Shown here one piece after another: positions 30,657 to 41,288 of a stretch of 50,903 nt of DNA. Source of the DNA: Candidatus Nitrotoga sp. CP45. GTDB taxonomy: Bacteria; Pseudomonadota; Gammaproteobacteria; Burkholderiales; Gallionellaceae. The stretch's first letter is position 1. Every line of letters starts with the position of its first letter. A model generated the notes under the pieces. The model saw nothing but the letters and a program-made list of their open reading frames with translations, was not told the DNA's origin and searched no databases. The stretch covers positions 1 through 50,903 of the forward strand of contig QFXJ01000014.1 of assembly GCA_003402375.1 (NCBI GenBank), in the 5' to 3' direction. Position numbers and translations under genes: made by a program.

Positions 30657-33600
30657 TTAATCCAACACTGGATGACCATTAACAAATATTGCAAATTCTT
30701 CAGCTGGCAGCGGATGGCTATAATAATAGCCTTGGATCTCATCGCAGCCTCGAGCGCGTAAAAAATCCAGCTGTTCCAACGTTTCCACTCCTTCCGCGAT
30801 GACCTGCAATTTAAACTGGTGGCCCAAACTAATGATGGAACGCACGATAGCCGCGTCATTTTCATCAATAGCAACGTCACGTACGAAGGATTGATCCACC
30901 TTCAGTCGATCAAGTGGCATTTTCTTCAAGTAACTAAGGCTAGAATAACCAGTACCAAAGTCATCTATGGCCAATTGCACTCCAAGCTCATGCATCTGTG
31001 TCAGAAAAGCCATTGACGCTTGAGCCTCGTTCATCATGACGCCTTCAGTAATTTCCAACTCCAAGTCCCCTGGATGCAGCCCCGTTTCTTCTAATACGGC
31101 GATGATCATTTGCACAAGCTGAGGTTGACGTAATTGACTGGTGGATAAATTTATGGATATCGGGAATATGGACATCCCTTGCCGCCTCCATTCGGCTAGT
31201 TGCGCGCAAGCTGAGCGCAGCACCCATTCGCCTATAGGTATAATCTGCCCGGTCTCCTCGGCCACTGGAACAAATTCTGCTGGCGCAACAAAGCCCTTCT
31301 CTGGATGTTTCCAGCGCAGTAATGCCTCCGCACCGCACACCATTCCATTGACCAAGTTTACCTGGGGCTGATAATGCAATGTGAACTCATTGCGCTCCAA
31401 CGCCAGGCGCATGTCATTTTCCATAGAAAACAGTTGATGGGCACGGAAATTCATTTCCGGCGCAAAAAACAGAAAGTTACTGCGGCCCTCAGCTTTTACA
31501 CGATACATCGCCACATCCGCATGCTTGATCAATGTATTAATTTCGTCCTCACTATCCGCGTTGTCAGGATAGATACTGATGCCGATGCTAGCATGGGTGG
31601 CGATTTGTAGAGCGCCGACATCACAAGGAGTAGTCAGCGTCCTGAGTATCTTGCCAGCTACTCGTGCCGCACCCTTTGCATCAGTCTCACGCAGTAATAC
31701 GATAAATTCGTCGCCACTGATCCGTGACACGGTGTCTACTTCACGCACACATTCCTGCAAACGCAACGCCACTACCTGCAATAATTTGTCGCCCACCGCA
31801 TGGCCCATCGAATCGTTTACATACTTAAAGCGATCAAGATCGATGAATAGCAATGCAAATTTATGCTTGTCGCGATGTGATTCAGCGATCAGCTGTCCGA
31901 GACGGTCATGCAGCAAGGTACGGTTAGGCAGAGCAGTCAACACATCGTAGTAGGCAAGGGACTGGATGTGCTGCTCAGATTCCTTACGTTTGGTGATGTC
32001 AACCCTAACCGATATGTAACGTACAATTTGCCCGCTCGCATCTTTGAGCGGCACGATAGCGCTATCCACCCAATACAGTGCGCCGCTTTTTGCGCGGTTA
32101 CAAATTTCACCGCGCCAGATGTCACCACGGGCGATGGTAGCCCACATCTCGACGAAAAAGGCGCTTGAATGCATCCCGGAATTAACGATACGGTGGTCAT
32201 GGCCGAGCACCTCCTCCCGGCTGTAACCGCTTACTTCACAAAATTTATCATTGGCCTGAATGATGCGCCCAAAAGGGTCGGCGACGGAAACGAGGGCGTG
32301 CTGGTCGATGGCCTGGATATAGCTGATTAACTCTGCAGAACTCCGCTCAGCACCTTCTTTGGCACGCAGCAGCAAACTTTGAGTTTGCTTGCGTGCTGTG
32401 ATGTCGTGGATGAAGGCACAGAATTCATACTTATTTTTCTGCTTGACCGGAGATATCGCCAATTCGATGGCAAATTGGTGGCCATCGCGATGCAAGCCTG
32501 CTATCTCTATACGCTTATTCAGTGCAGGTCCCTCGCCGGAAGCCAAAAAATGTTTCAAGCCCTGAATGTGCGCATTACGATACTGCGGCGGGATGATCAT
32601 ATCGTGCAGCATGTGTCCGATGGTTTCTTCCCGGGTCCAGCCAAAAATCTTTTCTGCCTGACCATTCCAGCCTGTGAGAATGCCCTCGGAATTCATTAAC
32701 ACCACGGCGTCCGGGGCAGCATCAATAATGGTACGCAATCTCGTATCGATCTCGGCCAGCTCCATTTCCTCCAGTTTTTTGCTGGTCATATCCTGAACCA
32801 CACCCAGCATCTTCAGTGGGGTTCCATCTGTATCGCGTATTACACCGCCACGTTGATGTAACCAGCGTACCGTGCCATCCGGCCAAATAACCCGGTGCTC
32901 TATGTTGTATCTAGTGCTTTCCTCAACGCAGGCATTCATTGAATTAATTACGTTCTGACGGTCATCAGGATGTATGTTGCTCAGGAAATCTTCATAAGTA
33001 CCATTCTGTTTTCCTGCAGGGCAGGCCATAAGGGCAGAAATATGGTCGCACCAATACAGTTCGCTAGTGCGAATGTCCAAATCCCAAGTGCCGATCTCGC
33101 CATACATCAGACTAAGGCGTAAACGCTCCTCGCTCTCGATTAATCGTTCATTCATCTTCCGCGCAGTTCGAAGAGCGCGTTCCCGACCCTGCACTAGCAA
33201 TCCTGTGAATAGCCCTAGCAATATACTCACAGCTAAGCCAACCACGACAATCGATTGCGACTTTTCTTCGGCCAGCTGCGCCTCAAAGCTGGGGAGAGAG
33301 CTAGCAGCCATTGTCCAGGTGTGTCCAGCAATTTCAAGGCGTTTGGAGGCATGGAAGAACGGATCTACGGCACTGATTTTGTTGGTGCTGTCGGCAGCAT
33401 GCATGAGCATCTTGCTCGACATGTTTTCGCCATCGTAGATTTTGATGTTAACGTCAAGAACACGTGCACCGAGAATGCCACGTATAAGATCATCCATCCG
33501 AAATAGAGCACTAACCCAGCCAATAAGATTGGCGCGGCGCTCAGCCGAAGTAGCATATGGCGCACCGTTTTTATAAACAGGCAAATACATCAAAAAACCA

Positions 33601-34229
33601 GTCTGCGCGCTTTCGCCATATTTTTGTATCAGTTTTGTCTTGCCAGTGATAACAGCTTTATCGTTATCACGCGCTTGCTCCATTGCAAAGCGCCGTACTG
33701 GATCGGAATACATATCGTCACCAAAAATACGTTGAATATCCTCTGAGAATGGCTCGATGAAGATGACAGAGGTAGTGATATCTCGCTTCCCACCAGGACT
33801 AATGGTGTATGCGGGAATACCTTCCTTGTAAGTGGTGGTAGTGTGTTTGTCTTGCTTCGCCGCAGGTACAATTAGCGAAAAACCCACACCCTGTATACCA
33901 GGGAAACTCTCCACAATATGTTGAGCGACGATGTAGGCATGGAATTCGTCGCGCTCTACGCTGGTGGAAGCGGCAAATAGGCCTTGCACGCCCCGCAGCG
34001 CTTGTTCCAAAGATTGCATACGTTGTTCAATGCGGTTACTGGCATTCAGCAAACGAAAATCGAAATCATATTGCAATTCCCGTACCGCTTCATAGCGTGC
34101 ATTTTTCCACAACTGATGGGTTACAACTAAAGAAACAATCACGACCAACCATGGTAAAAATCGGACAGCAGGAGACCATGATAGTAGCTGCTGAATGGGA
34201 TTAATGCGTGATGCTAATGAGGTCACCAC
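30657..34229 (-). CDS. CHASE-PAS-PAS-PAS-GGDEF-EAL cyclic di-GMP protein
   Basis: A 1190-residue membrane signalling protein. An N-terminal helix (about 22-40) and a second near 335-355 bracket a periplasmic CHASE sensor domain (about 80-300, with GVQGLFAASTSVERDEF). Three PAS domains follow (about 370-490, 500-625 and 640-755, two with PAC ends DMTSKK and DITARKQ). The GGDEF domain (about 765-925) has RISGDEFIVLL, where the first glycine is serine, a change many active cyclases tolerate. The EAL domain (about 940-1185) keeps EALLRWKHPEKG and DDFGTGYSSLSYLK. It may make and break cyclic di-GMP in response to a periplasmic ligand. The GTG start has no clear ribosome site. Confidence 0.93.
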   Translation of the reverse strand: MVTSLASRINPIQQLLSWSPAVRFLPWLVVIVSLVVTHQLWKNARYEAVRELQYDFDFRLLNASNRIEQRMQSLEQALRGVQGLFAASTSVERDEFHAYIVAQHIVESFPGIQGVGFSLIVPAAKQDKHTTTTYKEGIPAYTISPGGKRDITTSVIFIEPFSEDIQRIFGDDMYSDPVRRFAMEQARDNDKAVITGKTKLIQKYGESAQTGFLMYLPVYKNGAPYATSAERRANLIGWVSALFRMDDLIRGILGARVLDVNIKIYDGENMSSKMLMHAADSTNKISAVDPFFHASKRLEIAGHTWTMAASSLPSFEAQLAEEKSQSIVVVGLAVSILLGLFTGLLVQGRERALRTARKMNERLIESEERLRLSLMYGEIGTWDLDIRTSELYWCDHISALMACPAGKQNGTYEDFLSNIHPDDRQNVINSMNACVEESTRYNIEHRVIWPDGTVRWLHQRGGVIRDTDGTPLKMLGVVQDMTSKKLEEMELAEIDTRLRTIIDAAPDAVVLMNSEGILTGWNGQAEKIFGWTREETIGHMLHDMIIPPQYRNAHIQGLKHFLASGEGPALNKRIEIAGLHRDGHQFAIELAISPVKQKNKYEFCAFIHDITARKQTQSLLLRAKEGAERSSAELISYIQAIDQHALVSVADPFGRIIQANDKFCEVSGYSREEVLGHDHRIVNSGMHSSAFFVEMWATIARGDIWRGEICNRAKSGALYWVDSAIVPLKDASGQIVRYISVRVDITKRKESEQHIQSLAYYDVLTALPNRTLLHDRLGQLIAESHRDKHKFALLFIDLDRFKYVNDSMGHAVGDKLLQVVALRLQECVREVDTVSRISGDEFIVLLRETDAKGAARVAGKILRTLTTPCDVGALQIATHASIGISIYPDNADSEDEINTLIKHADVAMYRVKAEGRSNFLFFAPEMNFRAHQLFSMENDMRLALERNEFTLHYQPQVNLVNGMVCGAEALLRWKHPEKGFVAPAEFVPVAEETGQIIPIGEWVLRSACAQLAEWRRQGMSIFPISINLSTSQLRQPQLVQMIIAVLEETGLHPGDLELEITEGVMMNEAQASMAFLTQMHELGVQLAIDDFGTGYSSLSYLKKMPLDRLKVDQSFVRDVAIDENDAAIVRSIISLGHQFKLQVIAEGVETLEQLDFLRARGCDEIQGYYYSHPLPAEEFAIFVNGHPVLD

Positions 34230-34477: not shown

Positions 34478-35860
34478 TTAATGCTGCAACGATTTGATTA
34501 TATCCTCGACTACCTTTTTCGCATCGCCAAACACCATCATGGTTTTGTCTAAATAGAACAAGTCATTGTCCAGTCCAGCATAACCAACAGCCATACTGCG
34601 CTTAACCACCAGAATAGTGCGCGCCTTATGCGCATCAATAATCGGCATACCATAAATAGGACTGTTCGGGTCGGTCTTAGCTGCAGGATTCACCACATCG
34701 TTGGCACCAATAACCAGCACTACGTCAGTATCGGCAAATTCGTTATTGATCTCATCCATTTCTAATACTTGATCGTAAGGTACTTCAGCCTCAGCCAGCA
34801 ACACGTTCATATGCCCCGGCATACGCCCGGCCACAGGGTGGATGGCATAACGCACTTTGACGCCCTTGCCGATTAAATGCTCGGCCATTTCGTTGATCGC
34901 ATGTTGTGCCCGCGCCACCGCCAAACCATAACCGGGCACGATGATGACGCTATCCGCATTCCCCATTAGAAACGCAGCATCATCCGCACTACCGCTGCGC
35001 ACTGGTCGTTGTTCGACCTCGCCAGCCCCCCCCGCTTCGCTATCACCACCGCCAAAGCCACCAAGAATCACATTAAAAAAGGAGCGGTTCATCGCCTTAC
35101 ACATAATGTAAGAGAGAATCGCGCCAGAACTACCCACTAACGAACCGGCAATAATCAGCATATTATTATTTAGGGTAAAGCCAATGCCCGCCGCGGCCCA
35201 CCCGGAATAGGAGTTAAGCATGGATACCACGACCGGCATGTCCGCCCCACCAATCGGCATAATCAGTAATACGCCAAGCAATAGCGCCAAAGCAATCATG
35301 ATCAGGAATGGTGTCCAGCTTTCCGTAAAAATGAACATGATGCCAAAGGCGATCATCACAACACCCAGAAACAGGTTGAACCAGTGCTGCCCAGCAAAAT
35401 GCAGCGGTTTGCTGCCAAGCTTGCCGGACAGTTTTCCGAAAGCGATGATGGAACCGGTGAATGTAATCGCACCAACAAACGTGCCGATGAATAACTCAAT
35501 CAGATTGCTGGCGTGCAGCGGTGAGATGCCGTAGGCGACTGGGTTATAAAACGCGGACATAGCGACCAGCACCGCCGCCAGACCGACCAGCGAGTGCATT
35601 GCCGCCACCAATTCCGGCATGGCAGTCATTTGAATGCGCCGGGCGACCACCGCACCTACCGCTCCGCCCACGATGATGGCAAGCGCAATATAAATCAGGT
35701 TCTGGGTGATAGTCAGTGTGGTGAGCACCGCAATGGCCATACCTATCATGCCAAACATGTTTCCACGCCGTGCGGAAATGGGAGAACTCAAGCCTTTCAA
35801 CGCCAGAATAAAAAGAACTGCGGCGATCAGATAGGCTAATGCAACAAAATTTGCCGACAT
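34478..35860 (-). CDS. pntB: NAD(P) transhydrogenase subunit beta
   Basis: A 460-residue subunit with about nine membrane helices (residues 1-265) and the soluble NADP(H)-binding domain III (about 285-460). Domain III has VIIVPGYGLAVARAQHAI and the DVVLVIGANDVVNPAA loop. With the two alpha subunits it couples proton entry to hydride transfer from NADH to NADP. It is last in the pntAA-pntAB-pntB operon and is followed by a hairpin terminator. Confidence 0.96.
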   Translation of the reverse strand: MSANFVALAYLIAAVLFILALKGLSSPISARRGNMFGMIGMAIAVLTTLTITQNLIYIALAIIVGGAVGAVVARRIQMTAMPELVAAMHSLVGLAAVLVAMSAFYNPVAYGISPLHASNLIELFIGTFVGAITFTGSIIAFGKLSGKLGSKPLHFAGQHWFNLFLGVVMIAFGIMFIFTESWTPFLIMIALALLLGVLLIMPIGGADMPVVVSMLNSYSGWAAAGIGFTLNNNMLIIAGSLVGSSGAILSYIMCKAMNRSFFNVILGGFGGGDSEAGGAGEVEQRPVRSGSADDAAFLMGNADSVIIVPGYGLAVARAQHAINEMAEHLIGKGVKVRYAIHPVAGRMPGHMNVLLAEAEVPYDQVLEMDEINNEFADTDVVLVIGANDVVNPAAKTDPNSPIYGMPIIDAHKARTILVVKRSMAVGYAGLDNDLFYLDKTMMVFGDAKKVVEDIIKSLQH

Positions 35861-36013: not shown

Positions 36014-36310
36014 TTATTTACTTTTCTTTTTGAACATACTCAGCATGCGCTGTGTTACCAGAAAACCACCGAATACATTAACTGCCGCCAGCATAACTGC
36101 GATTAACCCCATTACTGTGCCGGCGTCGAGTTGCTCAGGCCCCGCCGCCAGCATGGCGCCAACAATGATAATGCCGCTAATTGCGTTGGTCACTGCCATG
36201 AGCGGCGTATGTAGCGCAGGCGTGACATTCCATACCACGTGATAGCCGACCACCACGGCCAGTACAAATACGGTCAGGTTGATAATGACAGGATCAACTG
36301 CACTACTCAT
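36014..36310 (-). CDS. pntAB: NAD(P) transhydrogenase subunit alpha part 2
   Basis: A 98-residue membrane subunit with three helices, containing [20 protein letters not shown], the signature of transhydrogenase domain II alpha. In E. coli this is joined to the soluble NAD-binding part; here they are separate genes, as in Rhodospirillum. ATG 36310 has GGAG upstream; the frame extends further upstream over the pntAA end without support. It lies about 75 bases after pntAA. Confidence 0.95.
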
Positions 36311-36386
36311 TTCAAAACTCCTATGTTGAGATTGGCAAGCCTTAACCTTTCCCAGCTCACTTTCTGAGGGGGAAAGATTAATGTAT

Positions 36387-37511
36387 TTATTTAATAACCA
36401 CTTCTCCATCGATACACAACAACGATCCGGCAATAATGTCGTCAGCACGATTGATGTTCATCTTTCCGCCGCTTTTGGGGTCGCATAATAAATTTAGGAA
36501 ATTCAATAAATTACGTGCATACAAAGCGCTAGCATCTGTAGAAACCAAAGCAGGCAGGTTGTCTTCACCCACCAGCGTGATGCCATGCTTGACCACTGTC
36601 TTCCCCAACTCGGACAACGGGCAATTTCCGCCTGCTTCAACAGCCATATCCACGATCACAGAGCCTGGCTTCATGGATTTGACCATATCTTCAGTCACCA
36701 GCACGGGGGCGGCTTTACCCGGAATCAATGCAGTGGTAATAACAATATCGGCTTGTGCCACACGTTTGGCAACCTCTACCTTCTGACGTTCCATCCAACT
36801 GGCCGGCATGGAGCGGGCATAGCCGCCAACGCCTTGGGCAATCTCCCGCTCCTCATCAGTTTCATAAGGCACATCAATGAATTTTGCACCCAGGGACTCC
36901 ACTTGCTCTTTCACTGCAGGACGCACATCGGAGGCTTCAATCACCGCACCCATACGCTTAGCAGTGGCGATAGCCTGCAAACCAGCCACACCCACGCCTA
37001 ATATCACCACGCGCGCTGCCTTCACCGTTCCGGCGGCCGTCATTAGCATCGGCATAAACCGTTTATATAAATTAGCCGCCACCAGCACCGCCTTATATCC
37101 GGCAATATTAGCTTGCGAGGACAAAACATCCATAGCTTGCGCGCGTGAGGTACGCGGCAGCTTTTCCATGGCAAAAGCGGTAATACCCTGTTTAGCGTAG
37201 GCTGCAACCAAGTCCGCCTGAAAAGGTGAAAGCAAGCCGATCAGTACGGTTTGGGGCGCCAGCTTTGCTAGCTCGTCTTCAGTTGGGGCCTTCACCCTAA
37301 GCATGATTTCCGCTTGAGCATAAACTTCCGCAGCGCTGACCAAAGTGGCACCTGCCGCCTGATAGTCGGCATCAGGAATACTCGCTCCCGCTCCCGCTCC
37401 CTGCTGTACCATGACTGCATGGCCAGCGGCCAACATCTTTTTCACCGTTTCTGGCGTTGCCGCGACACGTGTTTCACCTGCGCGCGTTTCCGTAGGAATG
37501 CCTATACGCAT
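36387..37511 (-). CDS. pntAA: NAD(P) transhydrogenase subunit alpha part 1
   Basis: A 374-residue NAD(H)-binding domain I protein of the alanine dehydrogenase/PNT family. It begins [20 protein letters not shown] and has the Rossmann loop [20 protein letters not shown], followed by [25 protein letters not shown] ribosome site precedes the ATG. A hairpin with a T-tail stands about 24 bases upstream of the ATG and may terminate the preceding gene or influence pnt expression. Confidence 0.96.
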
Positions 37512-37703: not shown

Positions 37704-40700
37704 TCAAGATGTACCCGTTATCATGTCATCTCGTTCGAGGCAATGTGCTATCCATTGCGCAGTAAGTTTTTCCTGCACGGTATTTTGTTTGAGCCGTGCA
37801 TTCAAACCGGGGAAATTTACGCAGTCTAGTCTTTGATCCTGGTTAAAACATGAGAATACATAGGTCTTTTCCCCGGTTACGATGTCAAAATGCTCCTGAA
37901 TGCACTGGCCACAAATCTCTTTCATCATGCATTGCATTGGTGAGTTGATGGAACCATATGCATGGTGATCCGGTTTCATATAGGGCTTCAGTTCGCCATG
38001 ACGGGCCGCCGCAACCGCAGCCATCATCCTATCTGAACCAATCACAATAATACGGTCGACCTGATTCACCTCAATTTCTGGCCGCCCTAATTCGCCGCTG
38101 GCATAAGCTTTAATGGCCTGCACAATATTGCCTACATAAGTTCGATCTTGGGGACGACTCGGTATAAAGCCAGGTGCTTCATCGCTGCACCAAATCACCA
38201 CATCAGCGGCCAACTCGATGTCGTCCACCTTATAGCGGTCTATCATTTTTTTATAGCCAGCAAAATAAAGAACTTTAGAGCCAACACTTCTAAATGCCTT
38301 GCCTATAGAAAATAATACGGCGTTACCCAACCCCCCACCAACCAGCAATACAGTTTCTTCCGGAACAATTTCAGTAGGGGTACCGGTTGGCCCCATAAGC
38401 ACTACTGGTTCACCATGCTCCAGCTTGGAGCATAGTTGCGACGAGCCACCCATTTCCAAAACGATGGTGGAAAGCAGTCCTTGTTCGGCATCAACCCAGG
38501 CCCCGGTCAAAGCTAAACCTTCCATGACCATGCGCGTACCCTCTACTTGTGCAGCATGCGTCTCAAAATTCTGCAAACGGTAAAATTGCCCTGGCTGGAA
38601 GCTGCGCGCCGCAGCAGGAGCCTTAACGATTATTTCAACAATATTGGGAGTAAGACGAACCACTTGATGTATCGTGGCACGCAGGTCATTGCCCAACCTG
38701 GCAAGGAATACGTCATCATTTTCTTTACTTGCCGCGGCAACTTGTGACAACACCCTGCTCAACACGGGATACCCCTGCTTGGCACTACCCATAGCCTTGA
38801 CCACGTTGCCCGAATAAGAAGGATGCAGGTCACCGAAAAAGCTGACGAAACGGCCATCATGGTACTTATACTGAAGCACGTGTGCCTTAGCCGGCTTGGC
38901 ATTGCTCCGCTCCGGCTTGACAGGCTCTCCCTGTTCGTCACATGCTTGGAAGTAGCGCCCATCCAACTTGAACTGTTCGGGAAACTCGCGTGCCAGCACG
39001 GTATTCGGCTGGGTACCCGCAGCCACAAAAATGGTGCGCGCCGGCAGATGGATTTGCCCGGCTTTCTGCCAGACTCCCTCGGCATCTAATACCTGGTTCA
39101 TCACTACCATGGCAGTCGCATCGCCATTTGTATCGATCTCTACCCGCACCGGCGTCATACCTTCGGCAAAATAAATTCCTTCCTCTAAGGCTTTCTCTAC
39201 TTCCTCATGATTGAGGGTATAGGAAGGACTATCGATCAGTCGTTTGCGATAGGCCAAAGTAACGCCTCCCCAGGATTTGATAAGCTGAAGGATGTTGGGT
39301 TTTCGTCCTTCAATTGCGGCCTGAGTCCGCTCCACACGTATAGCCCGGGCATGGCTCAGAAATTCTTCGCCAATAATGACTTCTGCCGCCGACCACATAC
39401 CGCGCACTGCCGCCTCTCCCTTTTCCGCTACTAACGTTTCATAGCGGCAAAGAAATTTTTCAACTTGCACCGGATAATAGGCGAGTGACTCAGTGGCTGT
39501 GTCAATCGCAGTCAAGCCGCCGCCAATTACCACAACCGGCAAGCGAACTTGCATGTTAGCAATGGAGTCAGGCTTGGCGGCACCCGTCAATTGCAACGCC
39601 ATAAGAAAATCCGACGCAGTGCGAACACCGCATGCCATGCCGTTTGGTATATCGAGTAATGTCGGGCGGCCAGCGCCAGCAGCCAGCGCAATATGATCGA
39701 AGCCCAGCCCAAAAGCACTTTCGGCAGTAATGGTTCCGCCAAAACGCACACCGCCGAATAGCGCGAACTGCGCGCGCCGCTCCAGCAGCAGGCGAATAAT
39801 TTTAAGGAAATTCTTATCCCATCGAACCGTAATACCATATTCTGCCACCCCGCCAAAACCGGCCATAACCCGATTATCCAGCGGCTCCGTCAATATGCTT
39901 GCATCATAGATTGGGCTAAACGCCACTCGATTGCCGCCCGTATCCACACCGGACAACTCACCCGGCAACGGCTCAATCTTCAATCCATCGACACCGACAA
40001 CGGTATGCCCGTCATTCATCAAATGGTGTGCCAACGTAAAGCCGGCAGGACCCATACCAACGACAAGCACACGCTTACCGGTGCCTATTTTCGGATAGGG
40101 ACGCCAGAAATTAAGTGGATTCCACCTGGTAAGCAGACTGTAAATTTCAAAGCCCCACGGCAATTCCAGAACATCCTTCAATGACCGGGTTTCAGCCTGT
40201 GGAATGTTTACAGACTCCTGCTTTTGATAAATGCAAGATTTCATGCAGTCATTGCATATACGGTGCCCCGTTGCAGCGCACATCGGGTTATCTACCGCGA
40301 TGATAGCCAACGCACCCAGTGCAAAACCAGACGCTTTGACCTTATGGAATTCTGAAATTTTCTCATCCACAGGACAACCCGCCAGCGGAATACCGAAAAT
40401 GCTTTTCTTGAATGGCGGAGGAGAACCCTCAACTCCGGCTTTTTCCCGCATACCGACCGAGCAGGAATCCTTGCCTTGCTCATGGCACCAAATACAGTAA
40501 TTCGCTTCACCCAAGGCACCAGCCAAGTCCGTACCTTTATCTGTAAGGGCAAAACCTTCGCGATGGCGGAGATGGCTATCCGCGAGACGATGCGCAGTAT
40601 AGGGAACGTTCTCAACAGGAATGATAGGCACCAAGCGCTGAAAATCAAGCTTGGCTGGAACCCTGAACAATACACCCTGTCCATGACGCTTTTTTCCGGC

Positions 40701-41288
40701 AGTGGTATGCACAGCCCAAGCCGCATATCGCATGGCAGTATCGATCCGGTCAATATTTTCTGCCTCAGCGTCAAGCCAACTATTAATTTTTTGGGCGAAA
40801 AGTAATTCACTCATTTCACTAGTAGAATCACCGAAAGCCTGCAACAACTCGGTTCTGAGGATATCGCCATCAAAAGCCGCTGCATCCGCCGCCTTATATT
40901 TCTGTACCGCCTTACGCTGGACAAAAATACGTTTGCAGTGAAATAACGGCGCTAACTCATTGTGTCGCTCTGCCAACTCCCGAACCGCAGCCTGAATATT
41001 AAATAATTGCCCCAGAAAATCTTCCAAATGCGGAGCCAGCCCAATAATGAGCTGCGATTCTTCCAAATGCGACATTTGATCTGGAGCATTACGTGCTGCC
41101 GCCAGCTTTTCTGCCAGCAATGGTTCGCTTTTAGCAAGTTCAGTCAAAAAACAGGAATCGATGCTGGGTAACCCATCGCAACTGTAGAGGTCTTCAAATT
41201 TCTTTCCAAATCCCAGTTTTAAAACTGGGGGTGGAGCTATTCCAGTATCAGCACCTGTGCTACGTTGCTGAGAATTTAAGCTTTCCAT
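37704..41288 (-). CDS. Large fused flavo-iron-sulfur oxidoreductase (GltD-like plus PyrK-like)
   Basis: A 1194-residue soluble protein. Residues 1-255 have no family I recognise. Residues about 260-360 carry eight cysteines as in GltD-type proteins: C266, C269, C277 and the GCPVDEKI cysteine C306, then C338, C346, C349 and C353, enough for two [4Fe-4S] clusters. Residues about 400-860 form an FAD/NAD(P) module with VLVVGMGPAGFTLAHHL and VVVIGGGLTAIDTATE. Residues about 900-1195 form a ferredoxin-reductase/PyrK-like module with FQPGQFYRLQNFE, VLLVGGGLGNAVLFS and a C-terminal cluster motif C1121, C1127, C1130, C1148. One chain thus joins two flavin sites and about three clusters, an arrangement suited to electron bifurcation or NADP/ferredoxin exchange (inference). 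Start ATG 41288 has GGAG upstream. Confidence 0.85.
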   Translation of the reverse strand: MESLNSQQRSTGADTGIAPPPVLKLGFGKKFEDLYSCDGLPSIDSCFLTELAKSEPLLAEKLAAARNAPDQMSHLEESQLIIGLAPHLEDFLGQLFNIQAAVRELAERHNELAPLFHCKRIFVQRKAVQKYKAADAAAFDGDILRTELLQAFGDSTSEMSELLFAQKINSWLDAEAENIDRIDTAMRYAAWAVHTTAGKKRHGQGVLFRVPAKLDFQRLVPIIPVENVPYTAHRLADSHLRHREGFALTDKGTDLAGALGEANYCIWCHEQGKDSCSVGMREKAGVEGSPPPFKKSIFGIPLAGCPVDEKISEFHKVKASGFALGALAIIAVDNPMCAATGHRICNDCMKSCIYQKQESVNIPQAETRSLKDVLELPWGFEIYSLLTRWNPLNFWRPYPKIGTGKRVLVVGMGPAGFTLAHHLMNDGHTVVGVDGLKIEPLPGELSGVDTGGNRVAFSPIYDASILTEPLDNRVMAGFGGVAEYGITVRWDKNFLKIIRLLLERRAQFALFGGVRFGGTITAESAFGLGFDHIALAAGAGRPTLLDIPNGMACGVRTASDFLMALQLTGAAKPDSIANMQVRLPVVVIGGGLTAIDTATESLAYYPVQVEKFLCRYETLVAEKGEAAVRGMWSAAEVIIGEEFLSHARAIRVERTQAAIEGRKPNILQLIKSWGGVTLAYRKRLIDSPSYTLNHEEVEKALEEGIYFAEGMTPVRVEIDTNGDATAMVVMNQVLDAEGVWQKAGQIHLPARTIFVAAGTQPNTVLAREFPEQFKLDGRYFQACDEQGEPVKPERSNAKPAKAHVLQYKYHDGRFVSFFGDLHPSYSGNVVKAMGSAKQGYPVLSRVLSQVAAASKENDDVFLARLGNDLRATIHQVVRLTPNIVEIIVKAPAAARSFQPGQFYRLQNFETHAAQVEGTRMVMEGLALTGAWVDAEQGLLSTIVLEMGGSSQLCSKLEHGEPVVLMGPTGTPTEIVPEETVLLVGGGLGNAVLFSIGKAFRSVGSKVLYFAGYKKMIDRYKVDDIELAADVVIWCSDEAPGFIPSRPQDRTYVGNIVQAIKAYASGELGRPEIEVNQVDRIIVIGSDRMMAAVAAARHGELKPYMKPDHHAYGSINSPMQCMMKEICGQCIQEHFDIVTGEKTYVFSCFNQDQRLDCVNFPGLNARLKQNTVQEKLTAQWIAHCLERDDMITGTS

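Follow-up and report, generated by a model that had tools for sequence, protein, structure and literature searches.

The ferredoxin-NADP+ reductase Fpr is a small flavoprotein of about 250 amino acids (aa) that carries no clusters. In Ruegeria pomeroyi, according to the accessible part of a study, the ferredoxin-dependent sulfite reductase SPO2634 is run by NADPH, the ferredoxin-NADP+ reductase (FNR) SPO2637 and a ferredoxin (PMC13188885); with this route documented, the sulfite reduction step is therefore expected to need such an enzyme. For Nfn enzymes, the available portion of a review distinguishes four patterns, of which pattern C carries the NfnA domains at the C-terminus together with about 200 extra residues; the homologues covered there share 40-90% identity with NfnAB of C. 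kluyveri, and that portion holds no description of the family treated below that we came across (PMC6405883). In the genome paper on Nitrotoga, a figure legend lists assimilatory sulfite reductase, CysH and CysND, and the accessible main text contains neither "transhydrogenase" nor "ferredoxin" (PMC6050957). Here, we analyze a 50,903-nucleotide stretch of Candidatus Nitrotoga sp. CP45 (contig QFXJ01000014.1 of assembly GCA_003402375.1, positions 1 to 50,903; henceforth termed the window) that encodes a 1194-aa fused protein with NfnL-like and NfnS-like parts (henceforth the fusion). This protein is probably a one-chain Nfn-superfamily NADPH:ferredoxin oxidoreductase that replaces Fpr and feeds sulfite reductase along with other ferredoxin users. 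The gene and its parts are the following, with template-modeling (TM) scores referring to the target structure:

37704..41288, minus strand: gene of the fused protein, 1194 aa; single intact open reading frame (ORF), ATG at 41288, stop at 37704-37706
40503..41288, minus strand: N-terminal all-helical domain and linker, residues 1-262; helices from about residue 31; no match in Pfam or the PDB
38691..40502, minus strand: NfnL/GltD-like module, residues 263-866; Pyr_redox_2 at 406-788; FAD site at G411-G416, NADPH site at G589-A594, Y680 and R681; target TM 0.77 to 5jca_L and 0.80 to 4ylf_B
40191..40496, minus strand: presumed ligands of two [4Fe-4S] clusters, residues 265-366 (C265, C268, C276, C305, C345, C348, C352 and E366)
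39273..39473, minus strand: helical insert in the NADPH subdomain, residues 606-672 (within 592-672), from DSSP of the model
37707..38690, minus strand: NfnS/PyrK-like module, residues 867-1194; PRK12778, PRK06222 and PyrK profiles; NAD site at residues 984-988, besides an FAD site and the [2Fe-2S] ligands; target TM 0.89 to 5jca_S
37848..37931, minus strand: [2Fe-2S] motif C-x5-C-x2-C-x17-C, residues 1120-1147 (C1120, C1126, C1129 and C1147)

The ORF is a real gene and not a chance reading frame, because it recurs in all 18 other genomes of the genus and in many named genomes. Within the genus, 15 copies are near full-length and three lie in pieces (G002, G003, G014); the best genus homologue shares 98% identity, as does the top named relative, from "Candidatus Nitrotoga sp. 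LAW". A preliminary description of the locus had proposed a GltD-like and a PyrK-like module with the cofactor set of bifurcating or transhydrogenating enzymes on one chain, and profiles as well as folds now confirm the two modules, and such a set is supported. In Pfam scans at E<=0.01, the window protein matched Pyr_redox_2 and, below cut-off, Fer4_20 (303-366) only. A profile built from 78 sequences, searched against the PDB, found NfnL (5vj7_A, 6e-23; 5jca_L, 9e-21) and NfnS (4ylf_A, 2e-17). The AlphaFold2 model of the whole protein reached a predicted local distance difference test (pLDDT) score of 91.4 and a predicted TM score (pTM) of 0.92; its top Foldseek match was 5jca_L, and lower-ranked matches included DPD, StnABC, NfnABC, GltD and adrenodoxin reductase. 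Three features by which we judged membership in the Nfn superfamily are present: an NfnL fold that includes sites for FAD and NADPH, an NfnS fold that includes sites for FAD and NAD, and ligands for two [4Fe-4S] clusters and one [2Fe-2S] cluster. As modeled, the fusion is thus an NfnL-NfnS pair in one chain, extended by a helical insert and an N-terminal helical domain. The insert coincides with a gap in the profile alignment with three PRK12779-type proteins.

Among named families, NCBIfam PRK06567 (NF005128) matched in three stretches that together cover most of the window protein from residue 23 onwards, at 748 bits and hence below its cut-off of 1072. This model is labeled "putative bifunctional glutamate synthase subunit beta/2-polyprenylphenol hydroxylase", and we found no paper on the family or its name in the literature, so that the full-length protein, although named by NCBI, did not turn out in these searches to belong to a known characterized family. 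Taken at its word, the automatic name, together with the GltD-like profile matches, would make the protein the small subunit of glutamate synthase or else a 2-polyprenylphenol hydroxylase. We consider this highly improbable and reject both roles: no GltB was found among the seven neighbors scanned, the GltD cut-offs are missed by a wide margin (41.7 of 447.7 bits for TIGR01317, 37.1 of 483 for TIGR01318), four further Nitrotoga genomes (G014, G016, G017, G018) carry ordinary GltD-like frames of 475 aa, and the C-terminal part resembles NfnS/PyrK and not a hydroxylase. The name therefore misleads for what is a widespread protein. PRK12779, by which we represent fused Nfn of pattern C, has a cut-off of 1519 bits, of which the window protein reaches 89 only.

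The cysteines that had been counted as sufficient for about three iron-sulfur clusters fit two [4Fe-4S] clusters and one [2Fe-2S] cluster, with cofactor contents predicted by homology. All 11 cysteines (C265-C352 and C1120-C1147) and E366 are invariant in the 78 rows of the large alignment, which took 77 of 99 homologue frames. In the wider count over all 99 frames plus the window protein, in which L077 and L143 stand for one and the same contig, the ligands are kept in 100/100 rows except for C1126, C1129 and C1147, which stand at 99/100, the single gap being the cut frame of L046; no homologue has thus lost a cluster cysteine. C305, C345, C348, C352 and E366 align to GltD/NfnL residues, in alignments that span C305 to E366 only. 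We take C265-C352, with the glutamate as eighth ligand, to be the GltD/Nfn set for two [4Fe-4S] clusters. The four-cysteine group C1120-C1147 is PyrK-like, whereas a PRK12779-type Nfn has Asp at its first position. Residues G411, G413, G416, G589, G591, Y680 and R681 are kept in 100/100 rows, and the NAD motif of the NfnS-like half is present in 96/100, being lost in L024, L131, L132 and L133. Because the NADPH residues are kept throughout and the NAD motif is missing in these four, the half leading from NADPH to the clusters is, by alignment, the conserved core of the family. One of the reduced forms, at L131:8281-11349 in the 1.4 Mb genome G399, is a 1023-aa version whose PyrK part lacks the NAD motif.

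The fusion is anti-distributed with Fpr, which was searched with the E. coli K-12 protein at E<=1e-12. Two candidates per genome were scored for the fusion and six for Fpr in the phylum sample, and 18 for the fusion in the order sample, so that absences are not absolute; the Fisher tests ignore relatedness and use counts from lists copied by hand. In the order sample (n=150), the fusion occurs alone in 38 genomes and Fpr alone in 70, whereas 12 genomes hold both (one of them, G454, by a weak match) and 30 neither (p 1e-7), giving totals of 50 for the fusion and 82 for Fpr. The pattern persists when 24 families of the order are represented by a single genome each (fusion only 9, Fpr only 12, both 2, neither 1; p 5e-4) and when the same is done for 51 families, a number inferred from family codes, where Fpr occurs in 5/19 with the fusion versus 23/32 without (p 0.003). 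In the phylum sample (n=398), Fpr is found in 1/17 genomes with the fusion and in 228/381 without (p 8e-6). The exchange is visible even within one family, f19, in which G485 and G561 have the fusion without Fpr and G054 and G525 have Fpr without the fusion.

Gene neighborhoods point in the same direction. A search of named genomes confirmed at least 580 related stretches, of which 80 loci were kept as the gene-context set; genes were called by codon usage, as simpler calling missed the anchor gene at 10/80. Outside Nitrosomonadaceae, 32 loci are flanked by 5 kb or more on either side and 44 by 5 kb or more upstream. Relationships were read from a quick protein tree with long-branch warnings for L131, L132 and L024. 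The ferredoxin gene fdxA lies immediately upstream of the fusion on the same strand, with gaps of 6-87 nt, at L084, L092, L110, L116 and L144 (FdxA family confirmed for L092, L116 and L144), and also directly upstream on plasmid pTcM1 of A. caldus. Together with the Fpr pattern, these neighbors suggest, if indirectly, a ferredoxin-NADP+ reductase function.

A second set of partners consists of genes for sulfate assimilation (cys). Ten Nitrosomonadaceae loci share the order cysB (opposite strand), cysI, cysH, cysD, cysN, fusion, pntAA, pntAB, pntB, sometimes with genes in between, and L066, L076, L079 and L081 show parts of it; the cysI genes at this place are of two quite different types. Elsewhere, L130 has cysI, a CysG-N-terminal-like gene, cysH, cysD and cysNC followed after a 2-nt gap by the fusion, and L134 has cysD-cysNC-fusion with a 4-nt overlap. 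L094 carries a NIR_SIR gene directly upstream, at L116 cysH and cysI follow closely downstream on the opposite strand, and at L114 cys genes lie 8-10 kb away. The cys link amounts to six changes on the protein tree, although those of L130 and L134 may be one event because the two are sisters. Nitrotoga carries its cys operon (cysI with a NirA-type best match, DUF934, cysH, cysD, cysN) on another contig and the FdxA gene on a third, apart from both the fusion and the cys operon. The Nitrotoga sulfite reductase gene itself (L127:8383-10125, contig C22) best matches ferredoxin nitrite reductase/NirA models, below their cut-offs.

A third recurrent neighbor is a heme A synthase gene, assigned by profile matches below cut-off, which stands divergently and directly upstream of the fusion at L085, L087, L095, L121 and L140 and one gene further away at L094 and L097; heme A synthesis may thus also draw on the fusion as its ferredoxin reductase. 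The loci with this link comprise Azospirillum and others, the named ones being mostly alphaproteobacterial. In addition, a recurrent cluster beside the fusion encodes a GntR regulator, an FrdA/AprA-like flavoprotein, a 77-aa 4Fe-4S ferredoxin, a HEAT protein, FdxA and an NMT1-like ABC transporter, and looks like a reductase system. It is common to the A. caldus plasmid (L024:6361-10425) and to the Burkholderiales loci L053, L059, L063 and L077/L143 (L143:11525-19417), although gene calling did not give the 77-aa gene in L053 or FdxA in L063. Despite the common cluster, the fusion protein of A. caldus is a distant one. Most other loci have no recurring partner gene.

The simplest reading to account at once for the fold, the Fpr pattern and the fdxA, cys and heme A synthase neighbors is an NADPH:ferredoxin oxidoreductase whose NAD branch may allow bifurcation. 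Several observations weigh against it. Twelve order genomes have both the fusion and Fpr and 30 have neither, as do 16/18 genomes of other Gallionellaceae genera by our matches, while a 17th, G025, holds only a broken Fpr fragment; the many genomes lacking both imply that other ferredoxin reductases must exist. Scoring a family by any of its genomes weakens the Fpr test to p 0.08, and 8 of the 17 carriers in the phylum sample belong to a single family (f57). Among the 19 genus genomes, G010 gives one Fpr match, the only one (C283:7314-8054, 46% to E. coli), which could be contamination in an assembly that is 83% complete and in 330 contigs. Most of the 80 loci have neither a cys gene nor fdxA nearby, and a CysI match lies near the fusion in 17/80, 14 of these being Nitrosomonadaceae. 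Two fusion-bearing genomes, G173 and G198, have CysJ-like proteins below cut-off. Two others, G399 and G294 (the latter only 70% complete), have no NIR_SIR gene; given G399, sulfite reduction cannot be the only use of the fusion, and ferredoxin supply is the more general role. Finally, the L130 CysI scores above the cut-off of a model whose name calls it NADPH-dependent, which would fit a direct NADPH route.

Such a direct route would make the fusion an analogue of CysJ, passing electrons from NADPH to the sulfite reductase hemoprotein without ferredoxin and perhaps docking through its N-terminal domain. Besides the L130 CysI, the operonic link to cysI, cysH, cysD and cysN in several lineages speaks for this, as does the near absence of CysJ: in 76 genomes, it was found in eight at E<=1e-30 and above cut-off in one, and the profile search gave no match in the window's genome. 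A NIR_SIR protein occurs in 71/76, some of these being nitrite or dissimilatory sulfite reductases, and neither profile discriminated among the genomes. The CysJ-like role nevertheless appears unlikely to us in view of fdxA directly upstream of the fusion in several lineages, the anti-distribution with Fpr, the lack of NIR_SIR in G399 and the variety of linked hemoproteins: those of Nitrotoga and L094 are closest to NirA/ferredoxin-nitrite reductase models (below cut-off), and that of L130 is of the CysI type. An FMN-binding flavodoxin domain, which we used as the criterion for CysJ, did not appear when the window protein was scanned with Pfam at E<=0.01 and at E<=1.

For an NADPH:ferredoxin oxidoreductase, we infer cofactors, substrates and direction as follows. 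NADPH would reduce the FAD of the NfnL-like half, from which electrons would reach a ferredoxin such as FdxA by way of the two [4Fe-4S] clusters. A second branch, exchanging electrons with NAD(H), would be formed by the NfnS-like half with its FAD, [2Fe-2S] cluster and NAD site, and because of this branch most members may bifurcate (2 NADPH + Fd + NAD+ -> 2 NADP+ + reduced Fd + NADH, or the reverse; Fd, ferredoxin). Reduced ferredoxin would then serve assimilatory sulfite reductase, other ferredoxin users and possibly heme A synthase. The proton-driven transhydrogenase (Pnt), encoded next to the fusion in Nitrotoga and Nitrosomonadaceae, would keep NADPH reduced in these groups. Profiles from Pfam and NCBIfam confirmed the reported adjacency, with pntAA-AB-B directly downstream on the same strand:

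36387..37511, minus strand: pntAA, transhydrogenase alpha, NAD-binding part; AlaDh_PNT N and C, PRK09424; 192 bp downstream of the fusion
36014..36448, minus strand: pntAB, part with four transmembrane segments (4TM); PNTB_4TM at residues 57-141; true start probably further inside, near residue 50
34478..35860, minus strand: pntB, transhydrogenase beta; PNTB E 1e-197

In the window, the pnt operon is adjoined by the gene of a 1190-aa CHASE-PAS-GGDEF-EAL protein (30657-34229, minus strand); an EAL/response-regulator gene also stands beside the fusion at the Nitrosomonas-like locus L129. Downstream pnt genes were found at 14/80 loci, some loci having little downstream DNA, and all 14 belong, by titles and identities, to Nitrotoga relatives or Nitrosomonadaceae, two groups that the tree separates with modest support. 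In the order sample, pntB is present in 44/50 genomes with the fusion versus 64/100 without (p 0.002). The joint role with Pnt that had been hinted at thus gains support from recurrence and co-occurrence, and for the alternatives of NADPH or reduced-ferredoxin supply, the Nfn fold, the FdxA and cys neighbors and the near mutual exclusion with Fpr point to ferredoxin.

How the two enzymes would cooperate can be read in opposite directions. In one, Pnt raises NADPH/NADP+, and the fusion sends electrons to NAD+ and to ferredoxin by flavin-based bifurcation, so that fully aerobic chemolithoautotrophs obtain low-potential ferredoxin to reduce sulfite, with the N-terminal domain docking either ferredoxin or the sulfite reductase complex; as a whole, this scheme is a tentative one that we would rather doubt than expect to hold. 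If true, it would describe a ferredoxin machine driven by the proton motive force in nitrifiers and many other aerobes. In the other, the fusion acts like Nfn of anaerobes, oxidizing reduced ferredoxin and NADH to make NADPH and so complementing Pnt, as the presence of all Nfn cofactor sites in a single chain and the adjacency and co-occurrence with pnt would allow. We regard this direction as quite improbable: Pnt already supplies NADPH, the neighboring genes are ferredoxin consumers, the NAD motif is lost in four of 100 members that keep the NADPH site, and it is not obvious where an aerobic nitrite oxidizer would obtain reduced ferredoxin.

The N-terminal domain had been described as 255 residues of unknown family. 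This holds for Pfam, which gave no match in the region, and for the PDB, where a profile search with the domain returned nothing at E<=1; it does not hold for NCBIfam, given the PRK06567 match from residue 23. The AlphaFold2 model of the domain (pLDDT 89.5) had no fold match in a Foldseek search of the PDB (best E 1.8). Among the 150 order genomes, with up to 18 candidates scored per genome, the domain gave 51 matches in 50 genomes, none of them clearly stand-alone: 49 belong to frames no shorter than 1063 aa, and the two in shorter frames (G537, G557) are presumably cut at contig ends. The domain perhaps docks ferredoxin or a partner enzyme.

The suggested link to lithotrophy was not supported. 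Among the matches listed, the fusion also occurs in Azospirillum, Bryobacterales and Paludisphaera, and 18 genomes of other Gallionellaceae genera gave no full-length copy, with weak local GltD-type matches or none, yet a metagenome-assembled genome labeled Candidatus Gallionella acididurans (L049) has one; lithotrophy is not the common factor of the carriers. G041 has two full-length copies (C2:442476-445961 and C6:68242-71727), and in G128 the gene is in two pieces on two contigs (C11:24692-26857 and C68:76-1410), one with an internal TAA. Taken as a whole, the observation in the preliminary description is confirmed and its interpretation partly supported.

As far as we could see, a role as substitute for Fpr is new for this protein, which becomes a candidate electron supply for many bacteria with a sulfite reductase hemoprotein but no CysJ. 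If it is correct, an Nfn-type enzyme replaces Fpr, perhaps with electron bifurcation in aerobic nitrifiers. Compared with Nfn of known structure (PDB 4ylf, 5jca, 5vj7), the fusion shares the fold of both halves, the cysteine sets for two [4Fe-4S] clusters and one [2Fe-2S] cluster, the aligned glutamate after the [4Fe-4S] cysteines, two FAD sites, and the NADPH and NAD sites. It differs in being one chain in L-S order with an extra N-terminal domain and a helical insert, in its four-cysteine [2Fe-2S] motif where Nfn has Asp and three cysteines, in an identity of 19-23% in the fold alignments and in its occurrence in aerobes. Fused Nfn of pattern C, described for Actinobacteria and Proteobacteria in the accessible part of the review, has the same NfnL-NfnS order in one chain (PMC6405883). 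We represent this pattern by the PRK12779-type protein of L146, an equation that is our own. From residue 243 of the fusion on, PRK12779-type Nfn matches by profile with 99.8% probability; it has no helical insert, Asp in place of C1120 and an N-terminal stretch that is also long yet unrelated (profile probability 0.2%, from only three near-identical PRK12779 proteins). The fusion would add an Nfn architecture beyond the four patterns in the available review text (PMC6405883). PRK06567 has the same architecture including the N-terminal region, but its cut-off exceeds the scores of both the window protein and the G399 protein without NAD motif (631 bits). With Fpr, the fusion shares the proposed physiological role and is unlike it in distribution. 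The closest functional parallel is in R. pomeroyi, where NADPH likewise feeds a bacterial sulfite reductase via a ferredoxin reductase, which there is, in the accessible part of that study, an ordinary FNR and not a fused Nfn (PMC13188885).

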